Virus record (IMG/VR): IMGVR_UViG_3300006802_000027
Coordinates: 1-39,724 of that record
Strand: one strand, 5' to 3'
Length of the DNA stretch: 39,724 nucleotides
Source: a virus
The stretch's first letter is position 1. Each line of letters opens with the position of its first letter. The position numbers and the translations under genes were made by a program. Under the pieces are notes generated by a model. The model was not told the origin of the DNA. It saw only the letters and a list, made by a program, of their open reading frames with translations, and made no database searches. Shown piece by piece: positions 3,218-33,909 of the stretch.

Positions 3218-3772
3218 CTATTTTAAGGGGGCAGCTTTAATCAATCCTTGTTGTCTATAAAAATTATATGTTGAATCAAATGTTGTATCTTTAATCGTTC
3301 CCACTGATGTAAATGTGTTTTTATTTCCAAAACCCTTATACATTGCATAATTAGAAGCACCAGATAAAATTGTAGAAAAAGCATTAGTATATCCAGTTGC
3401 AACTGCTGTTGATCCTTCTCGACGAACTGCCGAAGCTTTATTTAAAGCTAAATTCTTCTCCTGTTGGTAATTAAACTGACCGATTGCTTGATCAATTCCA
3501 ATTTGAGTTTGAGCGTTAAGCATAACTGCCATAGCACTTCCACCTAACCCAATTCCAGAAGCACCAATCGCTGCAACAGATTTAGCTAGTGTATGTCCTT
3601 TAACTCTATTATACTGTCCATATTCAATTTCAGATTGAGCCTGAATTGTATTGGCTTGATTCTCATAAATAGTCGCATTATAATTAGCTTCTGCCTTTTT
3701 AGCATATCCCTGGCTAATCTGAGAGATTGCTTGCACCGCACTCATTGCTAACATTACTCCACCAAAACTCAT
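3218..3772 (-). CDS. Internal virion protein B, T7 gp14-like
   Basis: A 184-residue protein starting MSFGGVMLAMSAVQAISQIS. It has an amphipathic/hydrophobic N-terminus, then a helical region rich in Ala, Gln and Asn containing ANYNATIYENQANTIQAQ, then a Gly/Ala-rich hydrophobic centre (AAIGASGIGLGGSAMAVM). This layout (N-terminal hydrophobic helix, YENQA-type repeat, Gly-rich middle, helical end) is typical of gp14-like internal virion protein B, which inserts in the outer membrane during ejection. Its start overlaps the stop of the upstream HNH gene as TAATG. It ends with TAG, which doubles as the start of the next ribosome binding site. Confidence 0.75.
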   Translation of the reverse strand: MSFGGVMLAMSAVQAISQISQGYAKKAEANYNATIYENQANTIQAQSEIEYGQYNRVKGHTLAKSVAAIGASGIGLGGSAMAVMLNAQTQIGIDQAIGQFNYQQEKNLALNKASAVRREGSTAVATGYTNAFSTILSGASNYAMYKGFGNKNTFTSVGTIKDTTFDSTYNFYRQQGLIKAAPLK

Positions 3773-4344
3773 TATGCACCTCTTTTAAGTTTTTTATTTT
3801 TATGGTATCTAAATAATTGTGATTTATTAACACAAGTTCTACATTGTCTTTTACCTTGTGACATTTTCAGATTATTCCCACTTAACAAATGACCCCTTAT
3901 ACAATGTGTTTTTCTTGCATTTATTGAAGGGGCTGCGTCGCTTCTTCTTACGTTCTCTACGCCAGTAACCGCTTCCAGATGTTCTGGGTTTATACAAATT
4001 TTATTTTTGCACAAATGATCTATTGTTAGCCCTTCTGGTATCTTAGATTTGAATAACTCATAAGATACTCTATGAGCATAATTACCTTGTATTCTTGAAT
4101 AACCCTTTACATTAACAGAATGTGGGTAATTCCAACAACCATTGTCATCAACCTTTATTCTTTCTGTAATATACTTTTTTTTATCTCTAATAATTTGGTT
4201 CTTTCTTGCAACACCAAAGCGTTTTATTATTATTGATATAGGAGAAGTAGAAACACCCAATTCTTTAGCTATTTCTCTATATGTTTTCTTTTCTTCAAGA
4301 TACATATTCCTAACATCTTCAACATTTATTATTATTCTTTTCAT
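3772..4344 (-). CDS. HNH homing endonuclease with N-terminal HTH
   Basis: A 190-residue protein. Residues about 20-45 form a helix-turn-helix (YREIAKELGVSTSPISIIIK), and residues about 100-125 carry the HNH core, with IDHLCKNKICINPEHLEAV giving the DH, N and H positions. The C-terminus has a CIRGH...CRTC zinc-knuckle pair. Such free-standing HNH proteins are usually homing endonucleases of phages. It sits between the tail protein gene and the gp14-like gene, interrupting what is normally a continuous structural block, which suggests insertion by homing. Start ATG is 17 bases after the tail gene stop, and the end overlaps the next start as TAATG. Confidence 0.88.
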   Translation of the reverse strand: MKRIIINVEDVRNMYLEEKKTYREIAKELGVSTSPISIIIKRFGVARKNQIIRDKKKYITERIKVDDNGCWNYPHSVNVKGYSRIQGNYAHRVSYELFKSKIPEGLTIDHLCKNKICINPEHLEAVTGVENVRRSDAAPSINARKTHCIRGHLLSGNNLKMSQGKRQCRTCVNKSQLFRYHKNKKLKRGA

Positions 4345-6386: not shown

Positions 6387-7445
6387 CTAAGTTGTTACTA
6401 CTGCGCCATCTGTATAAAATCTAAAATAACTTTCCCCTGCCTCGATGATATAAGAGTCGTCTCTATTAAAAACAAAGGGTATTAATCGTGCTCTCCCGTA
6501 AACTCTTTCTGCAATGCCTTCACTCGAACTTGTGTCGCTGTATTCAGTGTCTGGTACTGTAAAATTAGAAGTCCAACGTACTACATTTGACCATCTTACC
6601 TCGTCAAGCCATCCATCAAACTCATCAGCTTCTGTATCATTGTTACCTTCACCTATTTGAAACAAAGAATTTAAAGAACCAGGAGATACATTCAAACCTA
6701 TTTCTCCAGTTACATCAAGAACACCATCTCGATATAAATTTATAGTAGAAGATGATTTTATATATGCAATATGATACCATTGGTTTAAATTTAAATTAAT
6801 ATTAGAAGAAGTAAATGTATAGCTAGTACCAGCAGCCGAAGCAGTTCTCCATTCAAAACGATGTTCTGTTGCAGATAGCTTTTGATAATAAAAATAACTT
6901 ACATCATTTAATACTCCACTTGATACACTTCCTTTTTGTCTAAAGATATAAAAAATACTATTACTACCATTGCCTGTTGGGAAAGAATTGAATCTAATCC
7001 TAAAGTCAAATGTAAAAGAGCCTGCATAGGTTAAATCATAAATATTAGAATTACTTGGAGTAATTTGTAGATAGTTAGCACTCTTAACACTTGCTGACGG
7101 AGTAAATCTAGCTGATTGGTCGAAAACTGCTTGCCCTGTATCAATCGCCACAAGCCCAAGAACTGATGCGGTATTGTTTCCCGTACTATCTACTGTAAAT
7201 CCCGGGGTTGTATCAAAATGCAACAAAAGGATTGTATTGTCATCCAATCCACCAGCTACCGTGTCATACTTCGCATCATTTATAAATTCCGAACCAGGGG
7301 TACTAATTACCGAACCATAAGGGCTGACAATCATATTCTCAACAATAGAACAAGCGTTGTCGTACTGAGCAATGTCTGATCGTCCGTATAGTGAAGGTGC
7401 GAACTCTCCACCTGCAAATGATGTTTTTATTGTGTCTAGCTTCAT
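6387..7445 (-). CDS. Tail protein N-terminal domain with inserted LamG domain
   Basis: A 352-residue protein made of three parts. Residues 1-60 (MKLDTIKTSFAGGEFAPSLY...ISTPGSEFIN) and the last 40 (RARLIPFVFNRDDSYIIEAG...FRFYTDGAVVTT) match the start and end of the adjacent 100-residue protein almost residue for residue. Between them, residues about 65-310 form a LamG/concanavalin A-like sandwich, with LLLHFD at its start, NQWYHIAYI in the middle and GWLDEVRWS...RWTSNFTVP at its end. That domain resembles the stand-alone LamG protein encoded 1.3 kb upstream. It starts with ATGA overlap to the 100-residue gene and ends with TAG in frame with the 671-residue gene. A carbohydrate-binding role is plausible but inferred from the fold. 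Confidence 0.8.
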   Translation of the reverse strand: MKLDTIKTSFAGGEFAPSLYGRSDIAQYDNACSIVENMIVSPYGSVISTPGSEFINDAKYDTVAGGLDDNTILLLHFDTTPGFTVDSTGNNTASVLGLVAIDTGQAVFDQSARFTPSASVKSANYLQITPSNSNIYDLTYAGSFTFDFRIRFNSFPTGNGSNSIFYIFRQKGSVSSGVLNDVSYFYYQKLSATEHRFEWRTASAAGTSYTFTSSNINLNLNQWYHIAYIKSSSTINLYRDGVLDVTGEIGLNVSPGSLNSLFQIGEGNNDTEADEFDGWLDEVRWSNVVRWTSNFTVPDTEYSDTSSSEGIAERVYGRARLIPFVFNRDDSYIIEAGESYFRFYTDGAVVTT

Positions 7446-7744
7446 GTTGTAACTACTGCTCCGTCGGTATAGAATCTGAAATAATTATATCCAGCTTCAA
7501 TTATGTATGAATCATCTTTTGAAAAAACGAAAGGCATTAATCTCGCAAGGCCTGTTGACCCACCAGTTTTACACGCATTAATAAACTCTGTACCCGGCGT
7601 GCTTATCGCAGACCCATATGGACGGATAAGAAAATTCTCAAGCGTTTCACATGCATTTTCATATTGTGCGATATCAGTCCGTCCAAATAAGCGAGGTGAG
7701 AATTCTCCACCAACAAAACTTGTTTTTATTGTATCAAGCTTCAT
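7442..7744 (-). CDS. Tail protein N-terminal domain, free-standing copy
   Basis: A 100-residue protein, MKLDTIKTSFVGGEFSPRLF..., containing GGEFSPRLFGRTDIAQYENAC, then STPGTEFIN, then RLMPFVFSKDDSYIIEAG and FRFYTDGAVVTT. This is the characteristic N-terminal segment of the large podovirus tail tubular B-like protein, which normally continues for another 600-700 residues. Here it stops with TGA that overlaps the ATG of a second, LamG-interrupted copy. It is therefore a free N-terminal domain, either a functional subunit in a split tail protein or the residue of a tandem duplication. It is the most compact copy and has no insertion. Confidence 0.8.
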   Translation of the reverse strand: MKLDTIKTSFVGGEFSPRLFGRTDIAQYENACETLENFLIRPYGSAISTPGTEFINACKTGGSTGLARLMPFVFSKDDSYIIEAGYNYFRFYTDGAVVTT

Positions 7745-22088: not shown

Positions 22089-22271
22089 TTAGAATTGTAT
22101 TAATGCAGTAGGTCTTTTTTGATCAGTCTTTCGAGGTCTTTGACGCATGAGAATTATGTGGTGTTTAAACTGACATTCTGGAGATCCGCAGGTTTTTCTT
22201 ACTAATGGTTTTATTTTACAATATGGGCAAGCTTTTTGATATCTTGTTACAGTTATCTCAACTCTAACCAT
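22089..22271 (-). CDS. Small Cys-rich, zinc-finger-like protein
   Basis: A 60-residue basic protein with ACPYCKIKPLVRKTCGSPEC (two CxxC/CxxxxC pairs at residues 15-34) followed by QFKHHIILMRQRPRKTD. The four cysteines suggest a zinc-binding fold, and the basic tail suggests nucleic acid binding. It overlaps the end of the DPM1-like gene by 19 bases and precedes the terminase genes. It could be a late transcription or packaging accessory; no family is recognised. Confidence 0.6.
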   Translation of the reverse strand: MVRVEITVTRYQKACPYCKIKPLVRKTCGSPECQFKHHIILMRQRPRKTDQKRPTALIQF

Positions 22272-22831
22272 AAATTAAAAGACTCCTTTAAACATTTTAA
22301 AATGCTTGATATTTTCATTGGTTTAGATGACGATCCAAAATCATTAACCTCAACAGGCACCTCAATTATCTGCAATCCTTTATTTCTAGCCTTAGCTAAT
22401 ATCTCTAAATCAAAAATAAAAGAATTTGTCTTCCAATCTAACAAAGCATATCTATGAAACAATTTTATTCCTGTTTGAGTATCATAATTTAAACCAAAAA
22501 ACAAATGAAGATAAAATCTTGTTAACTTAGTTAATATTCTTCTACCAATTGAACGTCTTATTTGTTTTTTCCCAATAACAATATCATAATCACTTAAAAA
22601 AGGTATTAGTCTATGAATCATCGAAGGATGTATGTCTAGGTCTCCATCAATAAAGCAAATATAATCTCCCGTAGCTTGTTCTAAAGCCTTACGGACTGCC
22701 CATCCCTTACCCATACCATATCGGTCATTACAAATAACAATTTGAGCATTTGGAAAACATCTTTCTACTGCTTCAATCATTTTTAATATCTTTGGCTCAT
22801 CTTTTGAAGGAATAAGAACAGATAAATTCAT
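22253..22831 (-). CDS. DPM1-like polyprenyl-phosphate glycosyltransferase (GT2)
   Basis: A 192-residue GT-A enzyme. It has MNLSVLIPSKDEPKILKMIE, then GKGWAVRKALEQATGDYICF, the FIDGDLDIHP DxD box (Asp62, Asp64), DTQTGIKLF (residues 117-125) and SFIFDLEILAKARNKGLQII followed by EVPVEV. This motif series is characteristic of the DPM1/GtrB branch that transfers a sugar from a nucleotide sugar to polyprenyl phosphate on the cytoplasmic face. No membrane helices follow the catalytic domain, as in DPM1 rather than GtrB. The start at 22831 has GGAGG at five bases and shares ATGA with the upstream stop. It probably supplies the lipid-linked donor for the TMTC-like membrane enzyme two genes away. Confidence 0.85.
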   Translation of the reverse strand: MNLSVLIPSKDEPKILKMIEAVERCFPNAQIVICNDRYGMGKGWAVRKALEQATGDYICFIDGDLDIHPSMIHRLIPFLSDYDIVIGKKQIRRSIGRRILTKLTRFYLHLFFGLNYDTQTGIKLFHRYALLDWKTNSFIFDLEILAKARNKGLQIIEVPVEVNDFGSSSKPMKISSILKCLKESFNLWLELR

Positions 22832-23064
22832 TTTGCCTCCGTTATTAAACCACATTTCCAATTATCTTTTGGTATTTTAGAATAAACAACCCATTGTTTT
22901 CGATCATTATCAATTAAAACTTCATAACCATAAAGACTAGCAAATTGAAATGCTTTTTCTTTATCTGCAAAAACATATTCTTTTATTTCTTCTCGCACAA
23001 TTTCAGAATGTTTTAACTTTAAATTATATTGTTCAAAATCACAATTATAATATTGAATTATCAT
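22828..23064 (-). CDS. Small hypothetical protein between donor synthase and membrane transferase
   Basis: A 78-residue soluble-looking protein, MIIQYYNCDFEQYNLKLKHS..., with an amphipathic middle (EKAFQFASLYGYEVLI) and QWVVYSKIPKDNW near the end. It has no membrane helix, so it is not a GtrA-type flippase. ATGA overlaps on both sides tie it to the DPM1-like and TMTC-like genes. It could be a partner of either, but no family is recognised. Confidence 0.6.
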   Translation of the reverse strand: MIIQYYNCDFEQYNLKLKHSEIVREEIKEYVFADKEKAFQFASLYGYEVLIDNDRKQWVVYSKIPKDNWKCGLITEAK

Positions 23065-24383
23065 AACAACAAAGGCAATTCTCCTTTATGCCATTTATCC
23101 ATAAGACTATTTGCCATTTTTTCTTGACCTTTTGGTATATTCTCACTAGCCATTTTCATAAATTCATCTGCTTCTTTTTCATATTTTGCTAATTTTAATG
23201 CTGTTGCTAAATTAAAAAGTATTTTGAACTCTTTAGGGCTAATTATTCTTGCCATTGTCCAAAGAGTAACAGCCTCTGGATAGGATTTATTATCCCATCG
23301 CTTCATTGCTCTAACATGCCAAACAAACCAAGCATCTGGACTATGCATACACGAATTTTCAACTAAATAATAATCATCCATATAAGAATCCATCCAAAAC
23401 CACAATTTAGTCGCATACATTGCAATCCATGCGGAATAAATAACTGGATATTGAATTAAAAACGAAGCTAAAACAAACATTAGTCCACAATTAGGTAAAT
23501 AAACATATCTTTCGGCTATTTCTTGACTCATTCTAAATAAATTGCAAAAAGGAGCAATGCAAATACACCACCACAATATCCCAAAATTTATCATATCCCA
23601 CTTACAAAATATAAATCTATATAAAATAAAACCAACAATAATTAAACCAATCCAAAAAAACCTATCTTTTAAACTATATGCTTTTTCTTTACCACTTCCA
23701 GCCAAACTTTGCATATAAGAATGATAGAATGTTGTCTTTATTGGTATTAGTGAGTGAATAAAATAAAAACTAAAAGTTTTAACTCCTAATATTAATTTTG
23801 ATATGTGTATTCTTTTATCATCGTCATACATTTCCTGATTAATTTTATCAACAACATTCTTTTTAAACATTTTTAAATAAAACAACCAAATAAATGGCAT
23901 AAATCCTAAAAGCCAATAGTTTTTTGAACCAATTAATGCAAGTGGAGCTAAAAATCCAGCGTTAGAATATGCTGCTAATAACAAAAAAAATGCTCCTATA
24001 TAAGGAAATGCTATTGCCCCTGTCATGCCAAGAGCTGATAAAGCATAACCTCTTCCAGAAATCCAAACACTTGCTTGATTATTTATAGGATTAAAAGCAA
24101 ATAAAAAAGAAGCCAAAAAGGAAATATCATTCGCTCCAAATCCCAAATAAATAAAAACACATACCAATGAATGAATAATTGTTGTTAACAAATGATCTTC
24201 TTGCGGTGTTGTCCTAATACAACCTTCTAGTTGTAATAATCTAACCCTCCACCATTCTTTCGGTTTGGGACGTTGCGAAACAGGGATATCATCCGATACA
24301 TATTTATAAGTAATTGTTTTTGCAAAAAATAATAAATTTACTAATAGAATTATGCAGATTTTCTCAAACACAGTTTTCTCCAT
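23061..24383 (-). CDS. TMTC-like GT-C membrane glycosyltransferase with TPR end
   Basis: A 440-residue polytopic membrane protein with roughly ten hydrophobic segments up to residue 330. An early DD pair (Asp31-Asp32) lies in the first loop, where GT-C enzymes keep catalytic acids. FNPINNQASVWISGRGYALS (97-116) matches the HP-x-H-x-E-A-V-x-W-I-x-G-R box of TMTC O-mannosyltransferases, and AERYVYLPNCG (290-300) matches their ERFLYLPS-type motif. The C-terminal 80 residues are TPR-like (SPKEFKILFNLATALKLAKY). TMTC proteins use polyprenyl-phosphate sugars, made here by the DPM1-like neighbour. They are usually much longer, with many more TPRs. The acceptor cannot be told from the sequence. It overlaps the radical SAM gene by 34 bases. 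Confidence 0.75.
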   Translation of the reverse strand: MEKTVFEKICIILLVNLLFFAKTITYKYVSDDIPVSQRPKPKEWWRVRLLQLEGCIRTTPQEDHLLTTIIHSLVCVFIYLGFGANDISFLASFLFAFNPINNQASVWISGRGYALSALGMTGAIAFPYIGAFFLLLAAYSNAGFLAPLALIGSKNYWLLGFMPFIWLFYLKMFKKNVVDKINQEMYDDDKRIHISKLILGVKTFSFYFIHSLIPIKTTFYHSYMQSLAGSGKEKAYSLKDRFFWIGLIIVGFILYRFIFCKWDMINFGILWWCICIAPFCNLFRMSQEIAERYVYLPNCGLMFVLASFLIQYPVIYSAWIAMYATKLWFWMDSYMDDYYLVENSCMHSPDAWFVWHVRAMKRWDNKSYPEAVTLWTMARIISPKEFKILFNLATALKLAKYEKEADEFMKMASENIPKGQEKMANSLMDKWHKGELPLLL

Positions 24384-25390
24384 TTCTCTTCCGCGACCAA
24401 ACGCGCACCTCTTAATAAATAAGTAAAATCTTCCTTACACTTAATATCTTTAATCTTGTGATACCAAAACTCTGGAGATTTGTAGGCATCAAAAATCATT
24501 GGTATATATTTATGTCCTTTAGAATTTGGATCGGGTCTGGTTCTAGGAGGACTATAAACAGAAGCTTGCGCTGTTTTGGCATATCCTTTTTTGAGTAACC
24601 TATGAACCATTCTAACCGTATTCATTGCATCTTCATGAGACTCCCATTCATATCCAAACATCGTAGTCAGGTGAGATTCAAGTCCCGCATCTGCCATTTG
24701 TTTAATAAATTCTTCTTGCTTATTTGCTTTCTGTCCCTTTTGAATACGATCTAAAGTTTCTTGATTTGCACTTTCTAGTCCCACAAGAATAAAACGAAAT
24801 CCAGCCGCTTTCATCATTCTATAATCAATATTTACTGGCTTCATATTACAACCAATTTTTATTTTCTTATACCTATCTTTTTCTCTCATTTTTTTGCAAA
24901 AATTATAAAGCCATTCACCCACAGGAAAAGTACCAGAATCATCAAAAACTTCTTTATAGCCGTTAGCAATTAAATCATCTATTTCTTCAATAACGTGTTC
25001 GACGCTTCTTGTTTGTTGTGGTTCACCATCATTTAATTTTTTTGTATCAATACAAAAGGTGCATTTTCCATACCAGCAAAGATTGCTTGCCATCATGTGC
25101 GTTGCTGGATGGAATTTATAGTTTCCGTATGATTGCCATCTAGAATTTTTAGCGTCGGTAAATTTTCGATCTGGATAAGGTAGGTTTATAAAAGGAACAT
25201 CTATTTTATTGTCACTGTCAATTAAAAAAATATTTTCGTAAATCCATTCGCCCTTATAATCCCAAACAACATCATGTCCTTTATCTCTTAAATAGGTCGC
25301 GTAAGCTGCTAAATGAGCTGGATATACCCAAACTGGCTTCTCGAATTGACGTTGTTGGTTGTAAGGATTTAGTGGGAATAAATAGCGCAT
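24350..25390 (-). CDS. Radical SAM protein, B12-binding-type subfamily
   Basis: A 346-residue protein. The cluster motif is CWYGKCTFC (Cys105, Cys110, Cys113), a CX4CX2C variant that occurs in B12-associated radical SAM subfamilies as CYWxxCTFC, rather than the canonical CX3CX2C. The N-terminal 50 residues (YPAHLAAYATYLRDKGHDVV) look like the start of a truncated cobalamin-binding-type domain. The core then follows with VFDDSGTFPVG, GCNMKP and FILVGLESANQETLDRI. The reaction is unknown: lipid or sugar modification are possibilities from the context. The ATG has GGAG at six bases. It overlaps the TMTC-like gene, so the two are coexpressed. Confidence 0.85.
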   Translation of the reverse strand: MRYLFPLNPYNQQRQFEKPVWVYPAHLAAYATYLRDKGHDVVWDYKGEWIYENIFLIDSDNKIDVPFINLPYPDRKFTDAKNSRWQSYGNYKFHPATHMMASNLCWYGKCTFCIDTKKLNDGEPQQTRSVEHVIEEIDDLIANGYKEVFDDSGTFPVGEWLYNFCKKMREKDRYKKIKIGCNMKPVNIDYRMMKAAGFRFILVGLESANQETLDRIQKGQKANKQEEFIKQMADAGLESHLTTMFGYEWESHEDAMNTVRMVHRLLKKGYAKTAQASVYSPPRTRPDPNSKGHKYIPMIFDAYKSPEFWYHKIKDIKCKEDFTYLLRGARLVAEEKWRKLCLRKSA

Positions 25391-25458
25391 ATTACTCCAA
25401 TTAAAAAAAACATAAATAACAAAAATTTACCTTCAATCGTAAGGGGTAGATATCTCAT
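25369..25458 (-). CDS. Possible 29-residue membrane peptide
   Basis: A short frame translating as MRYLPLTIEGKFLLFMFFLI followed by GVICAIYSH, one hydrophobic helix. Its ATG shares ATGA with the end of the HNH remnant, and its stop lies inside the radical SAM gene. It repeats the first four residues (MRYL) of the radical SAM protein. It could be real or a by-product of the remnant. Confidence 0.35.
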   Translation of the reverse strand: MRYLPLTIEGKFLLFMFFLIGVICAIYSH

Positions 25459-25677
25459 CGCGTCCACCATTCAAAATCACATTTAGGACAAAGCCTTGGT
25501 TCATAATGAGCATTATGCCGAACTAATCTTAAATTTTCCGGACGGTTATCGTCTTTAATCCCATTAATATGGTTTACATCCGTTATTTTCACTATACTTC
25601 TTCAACAAATCGGCTTTCTTATCAGGAGACATATTCTTCCACCATAATTTCTTTGACTCGCTTTGCGCTATACTCAT
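25455..25677 (-). pseudogene. HNH endonuclease remnant, frameshifted
   Basis: Two short frames together look like a broken HNH nuclease. The first (25564-25677, starting MSIAQSESKKLWWKNMSPDK and reading to KKYSENN) begins with an ATGA overlap at the dehydratase stop. The second, offset frame (25455-25592, possible GTG start) reads VKITDVNHINGIKDDNRPEN, then LRLVRHNAHYEPRLCPKCDF. That is an HNH core (H-I-N-G...N-R-P-E-N-L) followed by a CxxC. A single frameshift would join them. The remainder of the gap before the radical SAM gene encodes only a short membrane peptide. Confidence 0.65.
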
Positions 25678-26684
25678 GCTACCCATCTTTCGTTTTCTAA
25701 AGTCCAATTAATAGTTTTTCTTAAAGATTCTTCTAAGTTACATGGAAAATCATAACCAAAATCTTTCAATCTTTTACCATCCAAGCCATAAAATAAATCG
25801 TGTCCCGGCCTAGAAGAATGTGCATCGACCATCCTATATTTCAACTCTTTATTCATTATCTTTGAAATCATTTGTGCAATATCTAAATTTGATATTTGTC
25901 TCTCACCGACGATGTTAAATCTATGAGGCCTATCAAATTCTGGGTACTTTTGCAAATTAATATTCTTTAACATATATAAAATCGCATCAGAAGTATTTCT
26001 TGCGTGTAACCAAAAACGAGCACCAGATTTTTTACCTTCTGGATCAGAATGGATAATAACCTCTTCACCGTTTTTTATTTTTCTTATAACCATTGGGATG
26101 AACTTCTCTTTATCTTGCATTTCACCAAATGTATTCATAATGTTTGTAAGAAAAAGAGGTGTCCCGTAAGTTCTCCAATAACTAACTGATATCGCCTCTT
26201 GAGCAGCCTTACTGGCAGAATAAGGATTTGATGGAATAATCGCGCTCCACTCTGGGTGGTTTGTTATCACATCAGTCGCCCCATAAACCTCGTCGGTACT
26301 TATTTGGATTAACTTCTCTGGCTGGATTTTCTTGCACAACTCAAGCATATTCAAAACTATGTTGACGTTGTTTTGTACAAAAGGCACTGGATCAGTAATT
26401 GAACGATCAACATGAGACTCAGAGGCAAAGTTAACCACGTAATCAATATGACCAATTTTATCAATTAAAATCTCTGATATGGGCGCGTTTAAGTCGTGGG
26501 TAAAAATCCTGACTCTTGAAAACTGTTTTTTATAATGTTCGTTATCCGTAAGCCTTTCTGAAATCCCTTTGTGTCTCCAACTGTCAATCCCAATCACTTC
26601 CCAATCTGTGTTGACTAGCACGTGGCTCAAGAAATGCGAGCCAATAAATCCGCCTATTCCTGTTATTAATATTTTCTTAGACAT
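25674..26684 (-). CDS. dTDP-glucose 4,6-dehydratase-like (extended SDR)
   Basis: A 336-residue extended short-chain dehydrogenase. It has the NAD-binding GIGGFIG (Gly9, Gly12, Gly15), NFASESHVDRSITDP (85-99), the catalytic STDEVYG (Thr130-Asp131-Glu132) and YSASK (Tyr155, Lys159). TNIMNTFGEMQDKEKFIPMV replaces the NNYGPYQFPEKLIPL usual in RfbB. All catalytic residues of the RfbB family are present, so the likely product is a 4-keto-6-deoxy nucleotide sugar, though other substrates in this family are possible. No following sugar-nucleotide enzyme such as RfbC or RfbD is present, so the product may be used by host enzymes. Confidence 0.88.
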   Translation of the reverse strand: MSKKILITGIGGFIGSHFLSHVLVNTDWEVIGIDSWRHKGISERLTDNEHYKKQFSRVRIFTHDLNAPISEILIDKIGHIDYVVNFASESHVDRSITDPVPFVQNNVNIVLNMLELCKKIQPEKLIQISTDEVYGATDVITNHPEWSAIIPSNPYSASKAAQEAISVSYWRTYGTPLFLTNIMNTFGEMQDKEKFIPMVIRKIKNGEEVIIHSDPEGKKSGARFWLHARNTSDAILYMLKNINLQKYPEFDRPHRFNIVGERQISNLDIAQMISKIMNKELKYRMVDAHSSRPGHDLFYGLDGKRLKDFGYDFPCNLEESLRKTINWTLENERWVA

Positions 26685-27573
26685 TATTTCCCCTTTCTAT
26701 TACTTTGAACCTTCCTCTTAAAATCCTTAGACGATAAAAATTTGATAGCTTCTTTAGAATCCACGAAGGCACGATAATAGAAATCAGCGAGTAAAACCAA
26801 AACGATGCATCTTTTAGACAATTCTTGTTTATTTTTACTGCTAGGCATATTTCCTCCCATAATTTATGCGGTGCTCTATTTTTTAACATTATAAAACTTG
26901 GATAATCTTTCCAATTATTATTTCCTGTAAGATCTACCCAATTTTGCCAACACGAACCTTGATAATAAGATTTTTTTGTTCCTGTGTTTCCTCCAGGATG
27001 ATAACGAAAAGCAACTGTATCATATTCAAACATTGTCCACCGCCATCTTCTAAGATATTGCTCAACAATATAAGGCATTTCTATAAATATTTTATTTGTT
27101 GCAAAAATATTATCATCTCTTCTAAACGCCATCCCAGAAGGGCAGCAACTTTGAGTTAAGATGTTTTTATCTCTTAAAACTCCAATAGCTCCTTTATATC
27201 CATGATAAAAATAATATCCAAATCTTCCAATAACACCAATATCTTGATTCCCTTTATCAAATTGATTAACAATATCTGTTAAAACTTTAGGATGAGTAAA
27301 AATATCGTCAGCGCATAAATAAACAACATATTTTCCTTGAGCCTCTTCCATTAATTTAACTAAATTTTCTCCAATCCCTATATTAACATTATTTATAATT
27401 AACCTTACTTCTGGGAATGTTCTTGCAACTAAAACAGTAGAATCGTTTGAAGCATCGTCACAAACTAAAATTTCTTTAAGAGGATATTCTTGTATTAAAC
27501 AGCTTTTTATTGCGTCTGCTATGACGTTTTCGTTGTTGTGGCTGGGAATGCAAATTGTGATCTTGGGTTTCAT
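26677..27573 (-). CDS. Family 2 glycosyltransferase
   Basis: A 298-residue GT-A enzyme beginning MKPKITICIPSHNNENVIAD, with ILVCDDASNDST (35-46) and a YLCADD metal-binding box (Ala88-Asp89-Asp90). Later SGMAFRRDD and FEYDTVAFRYHP are seen, then a hydrophobic C-terminal segment (FWFYSLISIIVPSWILKK) that probably attaches it to the inner membrane. I chose the ATG at 27573, which shares ATGA with the upstream stop. The neighbouring gene has the same layout and several of the same motifs, so the two are tandem paralogues. Substrate is unknown. Confidence 0.88.
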   Translation of the reverse strand: MKPKITICIPSHNNENVIADAIKSCLIQEYPLKEILVCDDASNDSTVLVARTFPEVRLIINNVNIGIGENLVKLMEEAQGKYVVYLCADDIFTHPKVLTDIVNQFDKGNQDIGVIGRFGYYFYHGYKGAIGVLRDKNILTQSCCPSGMAFRRDDNIFATNKIFIEMPYIVEQYLRRWRWTMFEYDTVAFRYHPGGNTGTKKSYYQGSCWQNWVDLTGNNNWKDYPSFIMLKNRAPHKLWEEICLAVKINKNCLKDASFWFYSLISIIVPSWILKKLSNFYRLRILRGRFKVIERGNNV

Positions 27574-28475
27574 GGTCTTTTGACCTCTTTTGTCGTCCAT
27601 CTTCCTATTGTAATTCTATATAAATGTGGAAGTTTACGTAAAATACAACGAGGAGTAAAAATTGCAACAAAAGCGAAAAACCAAAACCCCGGAATAATAA
27701 TATTAATTGGTCGGTATTTAACGAAGTTGTAACATTCTTTAATAACAGCAGACAATTTAAAATTATTTTTAATTTGGATAAGAGAAGTGTAGTCTTGCAA
27801 AAGAGAATATCCTCCTACCTTCTTCCAATTTTCTATTGGAGAACTGACCCATCTTTTTAAATAATATGATTTATTTTGACTGATAGAATTATGAACCCTT
27901 ACTCCAATCGTATCGTATTCCAATATTTTATAGCCCCATCCATTTTTTAAAACACAAGAAACTAAAGCAGATACTTCTGTAAACATCTTGTTTTCTAGCT
28001 TACAATGCCCAATTGCTTCTCGTCTAAAAGCCATCCCAGAAGGGTTGTTAGCAAGCTCTAAAATATTTTTGCCTCGCCATGCTCTACAAGGACGTTTATC
28101 GTTTCCAACGAACTGATGATAAAATCTAGAGACATGGCCAACGGTCTTATCTTCTTCAAAAATTTTAACAACATCTGATATAACACGAGAGTCTAGAATT
28201 AAATCATCGCTACACAACAAATAAATAATTTCTCCTTTGCTATAACTAATTGCTTTATTGAAAGCGTGGCCTGTCCCAGAAGGCTCCTCCGATCTAAAAT
28301 ATTTAACTTTCGGAGTAGAAAAAATTGCAAGGTCTTTAGTGTTGTCTGTCGAGGCGTCATCTAAAACAATAACTTCAATGTTTTCATAATCCTGTTTTAA
28401 AGCACTAATTAAGGCATCTGTTAAAAGATGTCCCTGGTTATGACTTGCGACGCATATACTTACCAAGTTTTGCAT
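27570..28475 (-). CDS. Family 2 glycosyltransferase, paralogue
   Basis: A 301-residue GT-A enzyme starting MQNLVSICVASHNQGHLLTD, with VIVLDDASTDNT (36-47), YLLCSDD (metal box about 85-91), NPSGMAFRREA, ILEYDTIGVRVH, and a C-terminal hydrophobic segment (IIIPGFWFFAFVAIFTPRCI). It shares SGMAFRR, EYDT and the C-terminal layout with the next gene, indicating duplication. The ATG at 28475 has AGGAAA upstream; a longer form would overlap the HNH gene further. The first 38 bases lie inside the HNH endonuclease gene, which suggests the HNH was inserted at the boundary. Confidence 0.88.
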   Translation of the reverse strand: MQNLVSICVASHNQGHLLTDALISALKQDYENIEVIVLDDASTDNTKDLAIFSTPKVKYFRSEEPSGTGHAFNKAISYSKGEIIYLLCSDDLILDSRVISDVVKIFEEDKTVGHVSRFYHQFVGNDKRPCRAWRGKNILELANNPSGMAFRREAIGHCKLENKMFTEVSALVSCVLKNGWGYKILEYDTIGVRVHNSISQNKSYYLKRWVSSPIENWKKVGGYSLLQDYTSLIQIKNNFKLSAVIKECYNFVKYRPINIIIPGFWFFAFVAIFTPRCILRKLPHLYRITIGRWTTKEVKRP

Positions 28476-28908
28476 GATGTTTCCTATGTTCTGATTCATT
28501 TTTACAAAGTATAAGATTTTCTATTCTGTTATCTGTCTTTATCCTGTTTATATGGTGAACAACCTCTCCCTTTCTTAACTTTCTTCCCAAATGTTTTTCC
28601 ATAACAAAACGATGCTCTCTTATCTTTTTATTTGGTGCATAATTTATAATTACATACCCGTGTGTCTTACATACCCACCTTCCACCTTTCCATGTTGGAC
28701 TTTTTTCTCCACTGGCTACAAAACTTTTCCCACGGAATGGTTTATTTTTCATAAAATTATGTTTACAAGACTTAGAACAGAATTTTTTTGTTTTCTGTTC
28801 GCAAGGATATATTTTGAATTTCTTAGTACAAAAAAGACAAGCTATCTCAATATTACTCTCTTGGACAAATACTCCATGACTATTTCTTTTTCTTTTAGCG
28901 TTTTGCAA
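28438..28908 (-). CDS. HNH endonuclease with zinc finger
   Basis: A 156-residue protein. An N-terminal zinc-finger-like part has CLFCTKKF...KKFCSKSCKHNF, followed by KSPTWKGGRWVCKTHGYVII and the HNH core EHRFVMEKHLGRKLRKGEVV then HHINRIKTDNRIENL. This is the standard layout of phage free-standing HNH homing endonucleases. It overlaps both glycosyltransferase neighbours by short distances. It is one of three intact HNH genes plus a remnant in this genome. Confidence 0.9.
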   Translation of the reverse strand: MQNAKRKRNSHGVFVQESNIEIACLFCTKKFKIYPCEQKTKKFCSKSCKHNFMKNKPFRGKSFVASGEKSPTWKGGRWVCKTHGYVIINYAPNKKIREHRFVMEKHLGRKLRKGEVVHHINRIKTDNRIENLILCKNESEHRKHHAKLGKYMRRKS

Positions 28909-29611
28909 AATAAATAACTCCTCTTAAAAATATTAATCCCATTAAACAAATAAATAAATCTGGTCTTTGTAAAACCCTTTTCCATTTACTATTTTCAAAA
29001 TAAACATCTATACATCTCCACCAAAGATTAAGGACTTTATCCCCAGGATTTTTCTGAGCAAAATTTTTCATTGATTTTGAATAATAAGCTTTCTTTCTTA
29101 AAAACTTAATAAAACTAATGCCATCATCATGTAACAAATAATTTCTTGAAGTTGTTCTTATCCCCTTAACTTGTCTGTCGTGATCGGAATCTTCAGGGCC
29201 ATTTAAATCCTCAGAAAATAATGGACAGTTTTCTTTTGCCATGAACCTAACGCAATCAACCGGAGTACCATTATAAAATTGTCTCTCCCAATTTCTTAAA
29301 TAAGCAAAAAAACCTTTTGTTATAATTTGTTCTGGAATGTATATTGCACTAAATCCTATATTTGCTAAATCAACTAACTCTTCAATAAGTTTAGGAGTGA
29401 CATATTGATCGGCATCTAAATATAATAAATATTTTCCCTTAGCTTTTTTTATTCCAAAATTTCTTTGATAACTTCTTTCTTTTCCTTCATCAACAACAAT
29501 AATTTCTAAATTTTTATAAGTTGATTTTTCAAGATGCTCTAAATTCTTTTTAATAAAAGGATCATTTTTAACTATTGGAATTATTACTGATACTAAAGGC
29601 TTTTCTCTCAT
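28895..29611 (-). CDS. Family 2 glycosyltransferase with C-terminal membrane anchor
   Basis: A 238-residue GT-A enzyme. It opens MREKPLVSVIIPIVKNDPFI, then NLEIIVVDEGKERSYQRNFG, with the donor metal site YLDADQY (Asp66, Asp68). LNGPEDSDHDRQV around residues 136-148 could hold the catalytic base, and the last 20 residues (DLFICLMGLIFLRGVIYF) are hydrophobic. This resembles inner-membrane glycosyltransferases of O-antigen or glycan assembly. It shares ATGA with the flavoenzyme gene upstream. Substrate unknown. Confidence 0.87.
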   Translation of the reverse strand: MREKPLVSVIIPIVKNDPFIKKNLEHLEKSTYKNLEIIVVDEGKERSYQRNFGIKKAKGKYLLYLDADQYVTPKLIEELVDLANIGFSAIYIPEQIITKGFFAYLRNWERQFYNGTPVDCVRFMAKENCPLFSEDLNGPEDSDHDRQVKGIRTTSRNYLLHDDGISFIKFLRKKAYYSKSMKNFAQKNPGDKVLNLWWRCIDVYFENSKWKRVLQRPDLFICLMGLIFLRGVIYFAKR

Positions 29612-30729
29612 TGGATTTCTAGTCCTTGCTGTATTGATTCAGCCATTCCTTGAAAACGCCAAGTTGCATATCTACCTATTGAAATAATATCTCTCTGCTT
29701 TAACCAATCAATATAAAATTCTCTTTCTTCTAAAGTTTTATTCCAAGTATATGCGCATTTAACAAAGGTAGGGTCTATTGTTAAAACATCGCTAATCCAC
29801 CCCCATCTTTGCAACTCTTCAATAATTTGGTCAATTTTTTTATCTAAATTAAAAGTCTCTTCTTGAGGATGATAAGCCATTTCAACTGATAATCCAACCA
29901 TACCATCTGGAGCCTTAGCTTTATCAACATTAGTATAAAAACCAACTCTATAAAATCCAGAATCGCAAAAAGGAATATATAACCAATGTTCTTCCGGTAA
30001 GTTAACCCCTGGATAAGCACCTATATTTAAAACAAAAACAGATGAATATGGCAAATTAAAATCTTTTAATCCACATATTTTCAATGTTTGATCTAGCGGG
30101 ATTGTTGATATTAGTCTATCATATTTTGCCCATTCCCCACTTTCAAAACTAACTGTCTTTGTTACAGTGTTTATATTAACTGCTTTTTGACTATAGTTTA
30201 TTTCGCATCTAGAGGCCATAGAATCAATTAATTTACTTAAACCACCCACAGGATCATGAAAACGAGAAACGAAGCCTACAGAGCCAGCTGGCGGGGTTTT
30301 AAAGGCATCAAACTGAATAATATCATCATATAATCCTGCTGTATACTTTTCATTAAAAGGCAAAAAGAACATATTGCCCATTTCATTCCCGAATCGTTCT
30401 AAAAGCCAATGTTTAAAAAATCCACTTTTTGATTCATTTATTTTTTGTGAATAAGTCTGGATAGGATAAGGAAAGATTTTGTTGTAGTAAATACCTGCTT
30501 TTCTTTCGTAGCTTTTTAATTCAACTAGACTACGTATAAATTCTATTGCTTTGGTCGTTTTATCATTCTCAAAAATCCAATGCCCACCTCCAACAGAGAA
30601 ATCAAACCCATCTTTTATATAAGAAGTGCAAATACCCCCAGCTTGATTAGAAGCTTCAAAGATAGGATAATTTTTGTTATATCCTGCGGATAACCCAGTT
30701 ACACCAGCACCTAAAATTATATTTTTCAT
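29608..30729 (-). CDS. UDP-galactopyranose mutase-like/FAD amine oxidase-family enzyme
   Basis: A 373-residue flavoprotein. It has MKNIILGAGVTGLSAGY (Gly7, Gly9, Gly12 dinucleotide fold), SVGGGHWIFEND near 45-55, YPYPIQTYSQK, and ends with SIGRYATWRFQGMAESIQQG. Glf-type mutases and protoporphyrinogen-oxidase-like enzymes share this plan; length fits the mutases (about 370-390). UGM makes UDP-galactofuranose, which would feed the nearby glycosyltransferases. A phage homologue of this kind is unusual. The specific reaction is not proven by motifs alone. Confidence 0.7.
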   Translation of the reverse strand: MKNIILGAGVTGLSAGYNKNYPIFEASNQAGGICTSYIKDGFDFSVGGGHWIFENDKTTKAIEFIRSLVELKSYERKAGIYYNKIFPYPIQTYSQKINESKSGFFKHWLLERFGNEMGNMFFLPFNEKYTAGLYDDIIQFDAFKTPPAGSVGFVSRFHDPVGGLSKLIDSMASRCEINYSQKAVNINTVTKTVSFESGEWAKYDRLISTIPLDQTLKICGLKDFNLPYSSVFVLNIGAYPGVNLPEEHWLYIPFCDSGFYRVGFYTNVDKAKAPDGMVGLSVEMAYHPQEETFNLDKKIDQIIEELQRWGWISDVLTIDPTFVKCAYTWNKTLEEREFYIDWLKQRDIISIGRYATWRFQGMAESIQQGLEIQ

Positions 30730-32432: not shown

Positions 32433-32433
32433 A

Positions 32434-32493
32434 TCATTCCTTTGCTATTAGTTGGGGTGGCAGGTACGGTATCAGCCATCCTAGGCTTCCCAT
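32434..32493 (-). CDS. Possible 19-residue peptide
   Basis: An ATG three bases after AAAAGG opens the peptide MGSLGWLIPYLPPQLIAKE, whose TGA lies just before the next gene's ATG. The context is the inverted-repeat region. Together with a second 19-residue frame (32567-32626) it may be a leader peptide of a structured RNA, or a chance frame. Confidence 0.3.
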   Translation of the reverse strand: MGSLGWLIPYLPPQLIAKE

Positions 32494-32660
32494 GTTCCTT
32501 TTACTTTCCTTACCACCCCATATTAGTTAGGGTATCTTGCAGTTGGTCTGCCTCAAACTTTTCTCCTCAAATATATCCGATAGATATATTCGGTATTGCC
32601 ACCAATTTCACGGGCTTATTATTCATCTGATAGACTTCCACGCCAAAGATACCCTATGAG
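32440..32660 (-). promoter_or_regulatory. Structured intergenic region with nested inverted repeats
   Basis: This gene-poor stretch has two notable inverted repeats: GGGGTGG/CCACCCC (32454-32460 and 32512-32518) and TAGGGTATCTT/AAGATACCCTA (32528-32538 and 32646-32656). Sequences next to two arms share AACTAATA on the minus strand. Two 19-codon frames with fair ribosome sites occur inside. The arrangement looks like a structured RNA or regulatory leader for the small genes downstream; no known riboswitch was recognised. Confidence 0.4.
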
Positions 32661-32879
32661 TTAAGTTTCTTCTGATTGATTTTCTTTTTGTATTGCCATT
32701 GATTTCTTTGCGAAGAAACAAGCCTCTTCTAATTTTGTCTTTACAACAGAAAATTCTCTGGTATTTTCAGGGCATTGTGATTTTAAGCCTTTTAATAAGA
32801 GGTCGAAATATTCTGCTATTAATTGTGCCTTCTCTTGCCCAGATTGATTTAACTTGTGAAACTGAAATAATGAATCCAT
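32661..32879 (-). CDS. Acb2-like anti-CBASS cyclic-nucleotide sponge
   Basis: A 72-residue helical protein. Residues 36-64 read CPENTREFSVVKTKLEEACF followed by FAKKSMAIQ. This matches the C-terminal helix pattern of Acb2/Tad1-hairpin proteins: CP-x-S-R-E-x-S-x-A-x-T-x-L-E-E-A-x-x-W-A-x-x-A-I-A. The N-terminal FQFHKLNQSGQEKAQLIAEY fits the first helix, where Acb2 has F-x-Y-H-x-P. Acb2 hexamers bind the cyclic nucleotides that CBASS uses as alarm signals and so block abortive infection. The Trp in FWAN is replaced here by Phe-Ala. Early operon position beside a Lar-like protein and a methyltransferase makes an anti-defence role plausible. The ATG has AAAGGA upstream. Confidence 0.7.
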   Translation of the reverse strand: MDSLFQFHKLNQSGQEKAQLIAEYFDLLLKGLKSQCPENTREFSVVKTKLEEACFFAKKSMAIQKENQSEET

Positions 32880-32920
32880 TTTATTCCTTTCGTTTACGTT
32901 ATTATTTGTTAGTTTATGAG

Positions 32921-33241
32921 TTAAGTTTTCAACTTTGTATTTATAAAGTCCATAATCACAGCTAAATTTCTTTGAGCAATATCAGTTGAAACATTACATC
33001 GAAGAAGTCCATCTCTGTATTCTATTGCTAATCCTACCAACCTCTCCAACTGCTCTGTAGGCTGGCGAGTGTTCCACCTCCTGACCTCAACACGGTCTAT
33101 AATATGCCCTCTTGTAAAAATACATTCATCAGTATGGTCAAATACATAATCAGAAAAATAATTCTTTGGCTCAGTATTACAAAAAGGACAATTTAACGGC
33201 TTTAACTCAACCTCTTTTTCCTTATCCATTTCTTCAAACAT
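32921..33241 (-). CDS. Lar-like restriction alleviation protein
   Basis: A 106-residue protein with LNCPFCNTEPKNYFSDYVFD (CxxC zinc-type site, residues 18-21), DECIFTRG and VEVRRWNTRQPTEQLERL. The CPFC...(W-N-x-R) layout is that of Lar-family proteins, which can protect phage DNA from restriction. Many homologues are only small zinc-ribbon proteins of unknown activity. ATG at 33241 follows AGGAG. It sits next to the methyltransferase gene in the early operon. Confidence 0.7.
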   Translation of the reverse strand: MFEEMDKEKEVELKPLNCPFCNTEPKNYFSDYVFDHTDECIFTRGHIIDRVEVRRWNTRQPTEQLERLVGLAIEYRDGLLRCNVSTDIAQRNLAVIMDFINTKLKT

Positions 33242-33270: not shown

Positions 33271-33909
33271 CTAAGCAAAACTTAATTGTCTGTCTATTTT
33301 TGATTGTTCTAAGACGTGTAAGCCTAATTCTGGTTGTACGCAGTTTGTTAACAATTTTTCTGGATGTTTAAATTTAAGTTCATATTTTGATAAATCAAAT
33401 CCATGCAATTCTTGTAGTTTTTTCATTCTTTCTTTATGACTCATTCTGTTTTCGCCCTTACAATTTGTTATGCTAAATTCTGATTTAAATTCTTTATATT
33501 GAATAAAGAAATTACTCCAAAATATATGTCGACCACACTCAAAACCATTAACCAACAACTCATAATAAGGCTTAACATTCTCAACAACATACTTTCCTTT
33601 AAAGAAATATTTTAAAAATATTATCTCTTGATATAAAGACATGTCTGGATAACGAATAACACCTTGAGCATTTAAGAAATGATTTACATTACTGTGTGTT
33701 GGACAAGGTGGAGAAGCCCAAATAAAATCAAATTCCCGATAATGTTCTAAAAGATATTGATGAGCGTCTGCTACTATTACATTATCTTGTGGAAAAAAAG
33801 ATTTATATATATCAGCAATTTGTTTATCTAATTCCACCGCAGTAACCTCAACATCAGTCCATAGTTTACGATTACCACCTATTCCAGCATACAAATTTAA
33901 AACCTTCAC
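33271..33909 (-). CDS. DNA (cytosine-5) methyltransferase, short form
   Basis: A 212-residue protein. It has VLNLYAGIGGN (SAM-binding, residues 3-13), AVELD, VADAH, the catalytic loop ASPPCPTHS (Cys69) and VVENVKPYYELL (Glu110). These are the C5 methyltransferase motifs I, II, III, IV and VI in order. The usual long target-recognition region and motif IX/X are mostly absent or short, as in compact phage versions. It probably protects the phage DNA from host restriction. The GTG start is preceded by GGGGAAG. No cognate endonuclease is next to it. Confidence 0.88.
   Translation of the reverse strand: MKVLNLYAGIGGNRKLWTDVEVTAVELDKQIADIYKSFFPQDNVIVADAHQYLLEHYREFDFIWASPPCPTHSNVNHFLNAQGVIRYPDMSLYQEIIFLKYFFKGKYVVENVKPYYELLVNGFECGRHIFWSNFFIQYKEFKSEFSITNCKGENRMSHKERMKKLQELHGFDLSKYELKFKHPEKLLTNCVQPELGLHVLEQSKIDRQLSFA

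Follow-up and report, generated by a model that had tools for sequence, protein, structure and literature searches.

Acb2 is a hexamer that, according to excerpts of PMC12043709 and PMC10419184, sequesters uncleaved cyclic nucleotides, dinucleotides between its protomers and trinucleotides at the trimer interface. In the T4 protein (Vs.4), F82 stacks against the bound dinucleotide and the Y8A substitution disrupts dinucleotide binding (excerpts of PMC12657218); binding is lowered by T68M (excerpt of PMC12657230). Tad1 is described in excerpts of PMC12043709 as binding isomers of cADPR (cyclic ADP-ribose) as well as CBASS-type signals; 3'cADPR is a Thoeris signal, of the TIR type (excerpt of PMC13232231). 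The PDB entry 9PTQ is entitled 'Structure of Acb2 homolog 43 in complex with 3'cADPR', a title that gives the ligand in the crystal and says nothing on the preference of homolog 43 relative to CBASS signals. Acb2, Acb2 homologs and a solved homolog with a Phe-Phe motif and 3'cADPR are already known; we found no description of a Phe-Phe subgroup in the literature that could be searched.

The window, that is the whole stretch of DNA analysed, is a 39,724-base IMG/VR virus record (GC 34%) whose portal protein is about 32% like Pelagibacter podovirus portals, e.g. that of HTVC010P. An initial annotation had proposed an Acb2-like cyclic nucleotide sponge in its early operon, and the open reading frame was found exactly where it had been placed, with the stretch CPENTREFSVVKTKLEEACF present in the protein. 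The probable genes on either side of it lie on the minus strand and adjoin recombination genes (for an Erf-like annealing protein, an exonuclease and a VRR nuclease), and its assignment to an early operon is a fair guess. The features of the gene itself are as follows:

32661..32879, minus strand: Acb2-type sponge gene, ATG start, 72 aa, single domain
32880..32893, minus strand: Shine-Dalgarno-like site (GAAAGGAATAAA / GAAAGGAAT) directly 5' of the sponge ATG, from reading the sequence
32859..32861, minus strand: Phe7, equivalent to T4 Tyr8 and to Tyr11 of p26 (the founding Pseudomonas Acb2), from the Pfam profile and structural ranges
32736..32738, minus strand: Thr48, equivalent to T4 Thr68, invariant in 34 of 34 aligned rows
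32712..32717, minus strand: Phe55-Phe56 of EEACFFAKK, from alignments

The search with the Acb2/Tad1 hairpin profile, a check named beforehand, gave a match above the curated cut-off: Pfam PF24729.2 (Acb2_Tad1_hairpin) matched residues 7-60 of the protein with 33.6 bits (cut-off 27, E 4.4e-8). When genomes were searched with the same profile, the gene's own genome matched with 33 bits, over the cut-off, and 0 of 14 control genomes matched. The protein also matched phrog_1454 (E 3.6e-10), a family without assigned function, whereas nothing in NCBIfam or PADLOC matched it; since NCBIfam thus provides no name and PHROGs no function, gene callers would probably label it 'hypothetical'. Among solved structures, phmmer with the single sequence as query found 9ptq, 'Acb2 homolog 43' (E 3.4e-7), and the profile of the alignment described below found it at E 6.4e-15, 9ptq being the nearest solved chain by sequence. 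All together, the Pfam, phrog_1454 and 9ptq matches and 40 relatives in viral contigs argue that membership of the Acb2 type is not due to chance.

AlphaFold2, run on the same alignment, predicted a monomer with helices at 12-32 and 41-62 and no beta sheet (mean pLDDT 90), a confident two-helix hairpin of Acb2-like fold. Foldseek alone gave zero matches at E<=0.001 for this model. When the 133 top Foldseek chains were compared with VIA-align 2, 9ptq came first (Z 7.8, rmsd 2.2 A, 65 residues, 37% identity), and T4 Vs.4 (Z 6.2), p26 (Z 5.7, 8h2x) and the C-terminal part of Tad1 (Z 4.6-4.8) were also in the list. Unrelated helical chains in that list had Z 5-6.4, thus the fold supports membership without proving it, and weight is placed on the sequence as well. 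With curated profile, solved relative and predicted fold in agreement, the proposed Acb2-like family is supported: this is a small stand-alone Acb2-type protein, without the N-terminal beta domain of Tad1. It adds a member to the Acb2 family, already known, and falls in a Phe-Phe subgroup of uncultivated phages.

The relatives come from one scan of viral contigs with 8-residue patterns as queries, EEACFFAK included, which gave 40 of them at 44-67% identity. We aligned 33 of these with the window protein (34 rows), leaving out five near-identical relatives and two with unclear starts (L016, L032). The profile of this alignment recovers 40 of 40 relatives, and every row matches PF24729 at E<=0.01. 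Queried with the window protein, cultured phage records gave 122 matches at E<=10, the best 40 of which all had E values of at least 1; among the matches listed, cultured phages thus appear, by sequence comparison, to carry only distant relatives. A search of genome contigs gave four loci, three of them real; L050 was rejected as a sponge locus, being a chance match within a long unrelated frame. A Phe-Phe Acb2-type gene was also seen at L048:7998-8204; its contig, filed under a Bathyarchaeota MAG, may come from a virus that was binned there or from an archaeal provirus. Cyanophage S-2L (L045, MW334946.1 35199-35411) has an Acb2-type open reading frame (PF24729, 69 bits) between annotated tail genes; it lies mostly in an unannotated gap, overlaps the start of the next gene and has no annotation of its own in the record.

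The C-terminal helix is the best conserved part of the alignment. F5, L10, G14, F25, R41, T48, K49 and E51-K59 (EEACFFAKK) are invariant in 34 of 34 rows, the invariance of EEACFFAKK being partly built in because EEACFFAK was among the scan patterns, and H8 is kept in 32 of 34. The window protein had been singled out as short and as having Phe in place of the usual Trp of the helix. At the position of the second Phe, Trp is indeed found in T4 Vs.4, in Gordonia and Mycobacterium phage proteins, in the S-2L open reading frame and in Tad1, and relative to these the replacement stands. It does not stand within the subgroup, where Phe is at the motif in all 34 rows (a biased set, found largely via EEACFFAK), nor relative to homolog 43, which has Phe-Phe as does L057, a protein from the other branch, nor relative to p26, which, judged by alignment to T4, has neither Phe-Phe nor Trp there. 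As Phe-Phe occurs throughout the alignment and in homolog 43, Phe at the Trp site is ordinary for the subgroup. Likewise, the protein is short relative to T4 (88 aa) but not within the subgroup, where the picked open reading frames have 60-90 aa, mostly about 70. In a tree, homolog 43 and L051 fell among the Phe-Phe rows, and T4 and the phage proteins of Trp type stood apart from them; this split, with support of 88/87, is based on few columns, with a very long T4 branch, and is not rated firm by the tree program.

Residues that matter in T4 Acb2, and their counterparts in p26, were mapped onto the window protein. T4 residues 7-83 fall on positions 1-58 of PF24729 and window residues 7-60 on positions 2-55, so that T4 Tyr8 and Phe7 both occupy position 2; a MAFFT alignment shifts T4 Tyr8 one residue on, to His8. 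The alignment column at this place holds V in 24 rows, F in 8, T in 1 and E in 1, and homolog 43 has Thr. T4 Phe82 corresponds to Ala62 in the window protein; p26 likewise has Ala there yet binds dinucleotides, so F82 is not a family-wide feature. Lys26 of p26, which we take to be a pocket residue, corresponds to Ala22 by ungapped counting from F7, in a column of A 26, Q 4, K 3 and S 1. Because of the changes at the Tyr8, Phe82 and Lys26 places, the dinucleotide pocket is, as read from the alignments, altered; most relatives depart from it further than the window protein does. The loss of key ligand-binding residues, which the initial annotation had named as speaking against its proposal, is partial: T4 Thr68 is kept as Thr48, whereas Tyr8 has become Phe and Phe82 has become Ala.

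On the analogy of its family, the window protein is very probably a sponge for a nucleotide signal. It would assemble, like Acb2, into a hexamer that would bind a small cyclic nucleotide, produced as a signal by the infected host, and leave it uncleaved; with the signal sequestered, the host effector would stay off, as the Acb2 family suggests. The explanation that we consider probable has TIR-made cADPR (Thoeris-type) as the likeliest ligand of this Acb2-type sponge, possibly together with cyclic oligonucleotides. A cADPR isomer is favoured because the closest solved relative holds 3'cADPR and has Phe-Phe and the short form in common with the window protein. Counted for this explanation are the PF24729 match, 9ptq as nearest chain by both sequence and fold, the tree, the invariant R41, T48, K49, E51, E52 and K59, and the retention of T4 Thr68; against it count the identity of only about 37% to homolog 43 and the differences at the T4 Tyr8 and p26 Lys26 places. 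That 3'cADPR or a close isomer would be a main ligand is roughly an even call, and for this protein 3'cADPR seems at least as likely as a CBASS signal. CBASS as the target had been an assumption of the initial annotation; it is 3'cADPR that the crystal of the closest solved relative contains. We suggest only tentatively that the Phe-Phe subgroup is a large Acb2 branch, mainly of uncultivated phages, with its pocket rebuilt (Tyr to Val/Phe, Lys to Ala) for TIR-made cADPR instead of CBASS dinucleotides, and that its members are mainly anti-Thoeris; if true, the name 'anti-CBASS 2' would not fit the subgroup.

Next to be weighed is a broad sponge that would, like Tad1, have separate sites for TIR-made cADPR and for CBASS oligonucleotides, which is conceivable, if on the doubtful side. 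The Tad1 hairpin is also a PF24729 domain, Tad1 reportedly binds signals of either kind (excerpts of PMC12043709), the title of PDB entry 8kbf reads 'CbTad1 complexed with 1',3'-cADPR and cA3', and the conservation of the C-terminal helix would fit; for the Phe-Phe subgroup, the two sites would be a conjecture. Rather unlikely is a classical anti-CBASS sponge, whose inter-protomer pocket would hold cyclic dinucleotides and/or whose trimer interface would hold trinucleotides, like those of T4 Vs.4 and p26. The prevalence of Val at the Tyr8 place and Ala22 at that of p26 Lys26 argue against it, as do the failure of the alignment profile to find p26 at E<=10 and the 3'cADPR in 9PTQ, although Thr48 equals T4 Thr68, Phe7 remains aromatic, and the founders of the family act in this way (excerpts of PMC10419184 and PMC12043709). 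An Acb2-descended hairpin that binds no nucleotide, or has a different job in the phage, would agree with the changes at the T4 Tyr8, T4 Phe82 and p26 Lys26 places and with the mixed gene contexts elsewhere (near terminase, polymerase and head genes), but it is improbable, as the conservation of R41, T48, K49, E51, E52, K58 and K59 across diverse phages exceeds structural need and the solved structure of homolog 43 contains a ligand despite a non-aromatic residue at the Tyr8 place.

The initial annotation had placed the sponge gene in a small anti-defence island with a Lar-like protein and a methyltransferase, the genes directly upstream and two genes upstream of it, respectively:

32921..33241, minus strand: Lar-like open reading frame of zinc-ribbon type, 106 aa; phrog_599 at E 0.0048 only, CPFC...WNTR by eye and regex
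33271..33909, minus strand: short C5-cytosine DNA methyltransferase, 212 aa; PF00145 36.6 bits against a cut-off of 22, phrog_363 E 2e-16

The methyltransferase is clear from PF00145. For the Lar-like neighbour, the open reading frame and its motif are present, but the phrog_599 match is weak, and neither Pfam (above cut-off) nor NCBIfam gave a Lar match. The sponge gene and the Lar-like gene both carry an exact 14-base direct repeat, TATGAGTTAAGTTT, at their 3' ends (32655-32668 and 32915-32928). Each of the three genes may help against host defence, but a conserved island of sponge, Lar-like and methyltransferase genes is not supported: the grouping recurs at 0 of 40 sponge loci and 0 of 14 methyltransferase loci. 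At E<=1e-3, not one of the 40 sponge loci had a relative of the methyltransferase, the Lar-like protein or the VRR nuclease, and no sponge turned up at the 14 viral-contig loci with methyltransferase relatives. One observation points the other way: at L049, a motif of Lar type, seen by regex only, occurs about 3.5 kb away from the sponge. Clustering of neighbouring open reading frames at 35 of the 40 sponge loci (L006, L011, L012, L018 and L025 being dropped as near-identical) gave nothing in common except one acetyltransferase-like family, assigned by eye, at 4 loci, and no other anti-defence genes were found in neighbour scans of 10 large and 10 mostly small open reading frames. An open reading frame of L035 that matched 'Bxa ADP-ribosyl transferase' (E 2.4e-6) was rejected, its best match being head morphogenesis (E 4.8e-24). 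At some loci the sponge is instead found near terminase (L001, L026, L040), head (L035) or DNA polymerase (L013) genes. An HNH-type open reading frame of the window (by eye; 3772-4344, minus strand), with relatives in the neighbourhood of the sponge at L005 and L008, is probably a wandering homing endonuclease.

Directly 3' of the sponge, 32433-32660 (minus strand) is without an ordinary gene, and its RNA folding beats that of shuffled sequences (z -3.09). A structured RNA was considered there and rejected: an Rfam search of 32433-32660 gave no match, and six viral contigs that share a 16-base piece have nothing else visible in common. The region contains tiny open reading frames, one of 24 aa at 32567-32641 (minus strand) and one of 19 codons, seen by eye, that ends at the start of the 32235-32432 gene. 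At 6387-7744 (minus strand), two neighbouring open reading frames duplicate the N-terminal part of a tail protein (MKLDTIKTSF...DGAVVTT; 181-nt repeat, 70%), one of them with a long insert, LamG-like by eye; a separate open reading frame at 4362-6377 matches phrog_376, a tail family, from position 104 onwards, as though it were the remainder of the tail protein. A block of sugar and cell-surface genes, assigned by eye, occupies 22253-30729 (minus strand; glycosyltransferases, an epimerase and a UDP-galactopyranose-mutase-like open reading frame) and holds a radical-SAM protein that matches the HpnJ family (E 1.6e-18), far under the model cut-off.

With these results the Acb2 family comes to include a well-conserved subgroup of environmental phages. 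Should this subgroup bind cADPR, 'anti-CBASS' labels assigned automatically would be misleading, and motif changes at two positions would be of use in predicting which defence a phage resists.

Compared with known systems, the window protein shares with homolog 43 (9PTQ) the family, the hairpin fold, the short length, Phe-Phe and an RE-S--KTKLEEA-FFA-KA core; at 37% identity, homolog 43 differs in having Thr for Phe at the T4 Tyr8 place, Met for Cys54 and Lys for Ala at the p26 Lys26 place. T4 Vs.4 (7UQ2, with cGAMP) has PF24729, the KTKL-EA core, Thr68 as the counterpart of Thr48 and a similar fold (Z 6.2) in common with it; unlike the window protein it has 88 aa and an insertion in its helical part, the identity in the structural alignment is 18%, and its Tyr8, Phe82 and last-helix Trp are all missing from the window protein. 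The fold of p26 (8H2J, 8H2X, 8IXZ) is similar as well (Z 5.7 for 8h2x), with Ala at the T4 Phe82 place in both proteins, whereas identity is 14%, Tyr11 stands against Phe and the alignment profile misses p26 at E<=10. The Tad1 hairpin (7UAV, 8KBB, 8KBF) belongs by name to the same Pfam hairpin domain and resembles the window protein through its C-terminal part (Z 4.6-4.8), whereas the N-terminal beta domain of Tad1, as described in excerpts of PMC12043709, is absent from the window protein.
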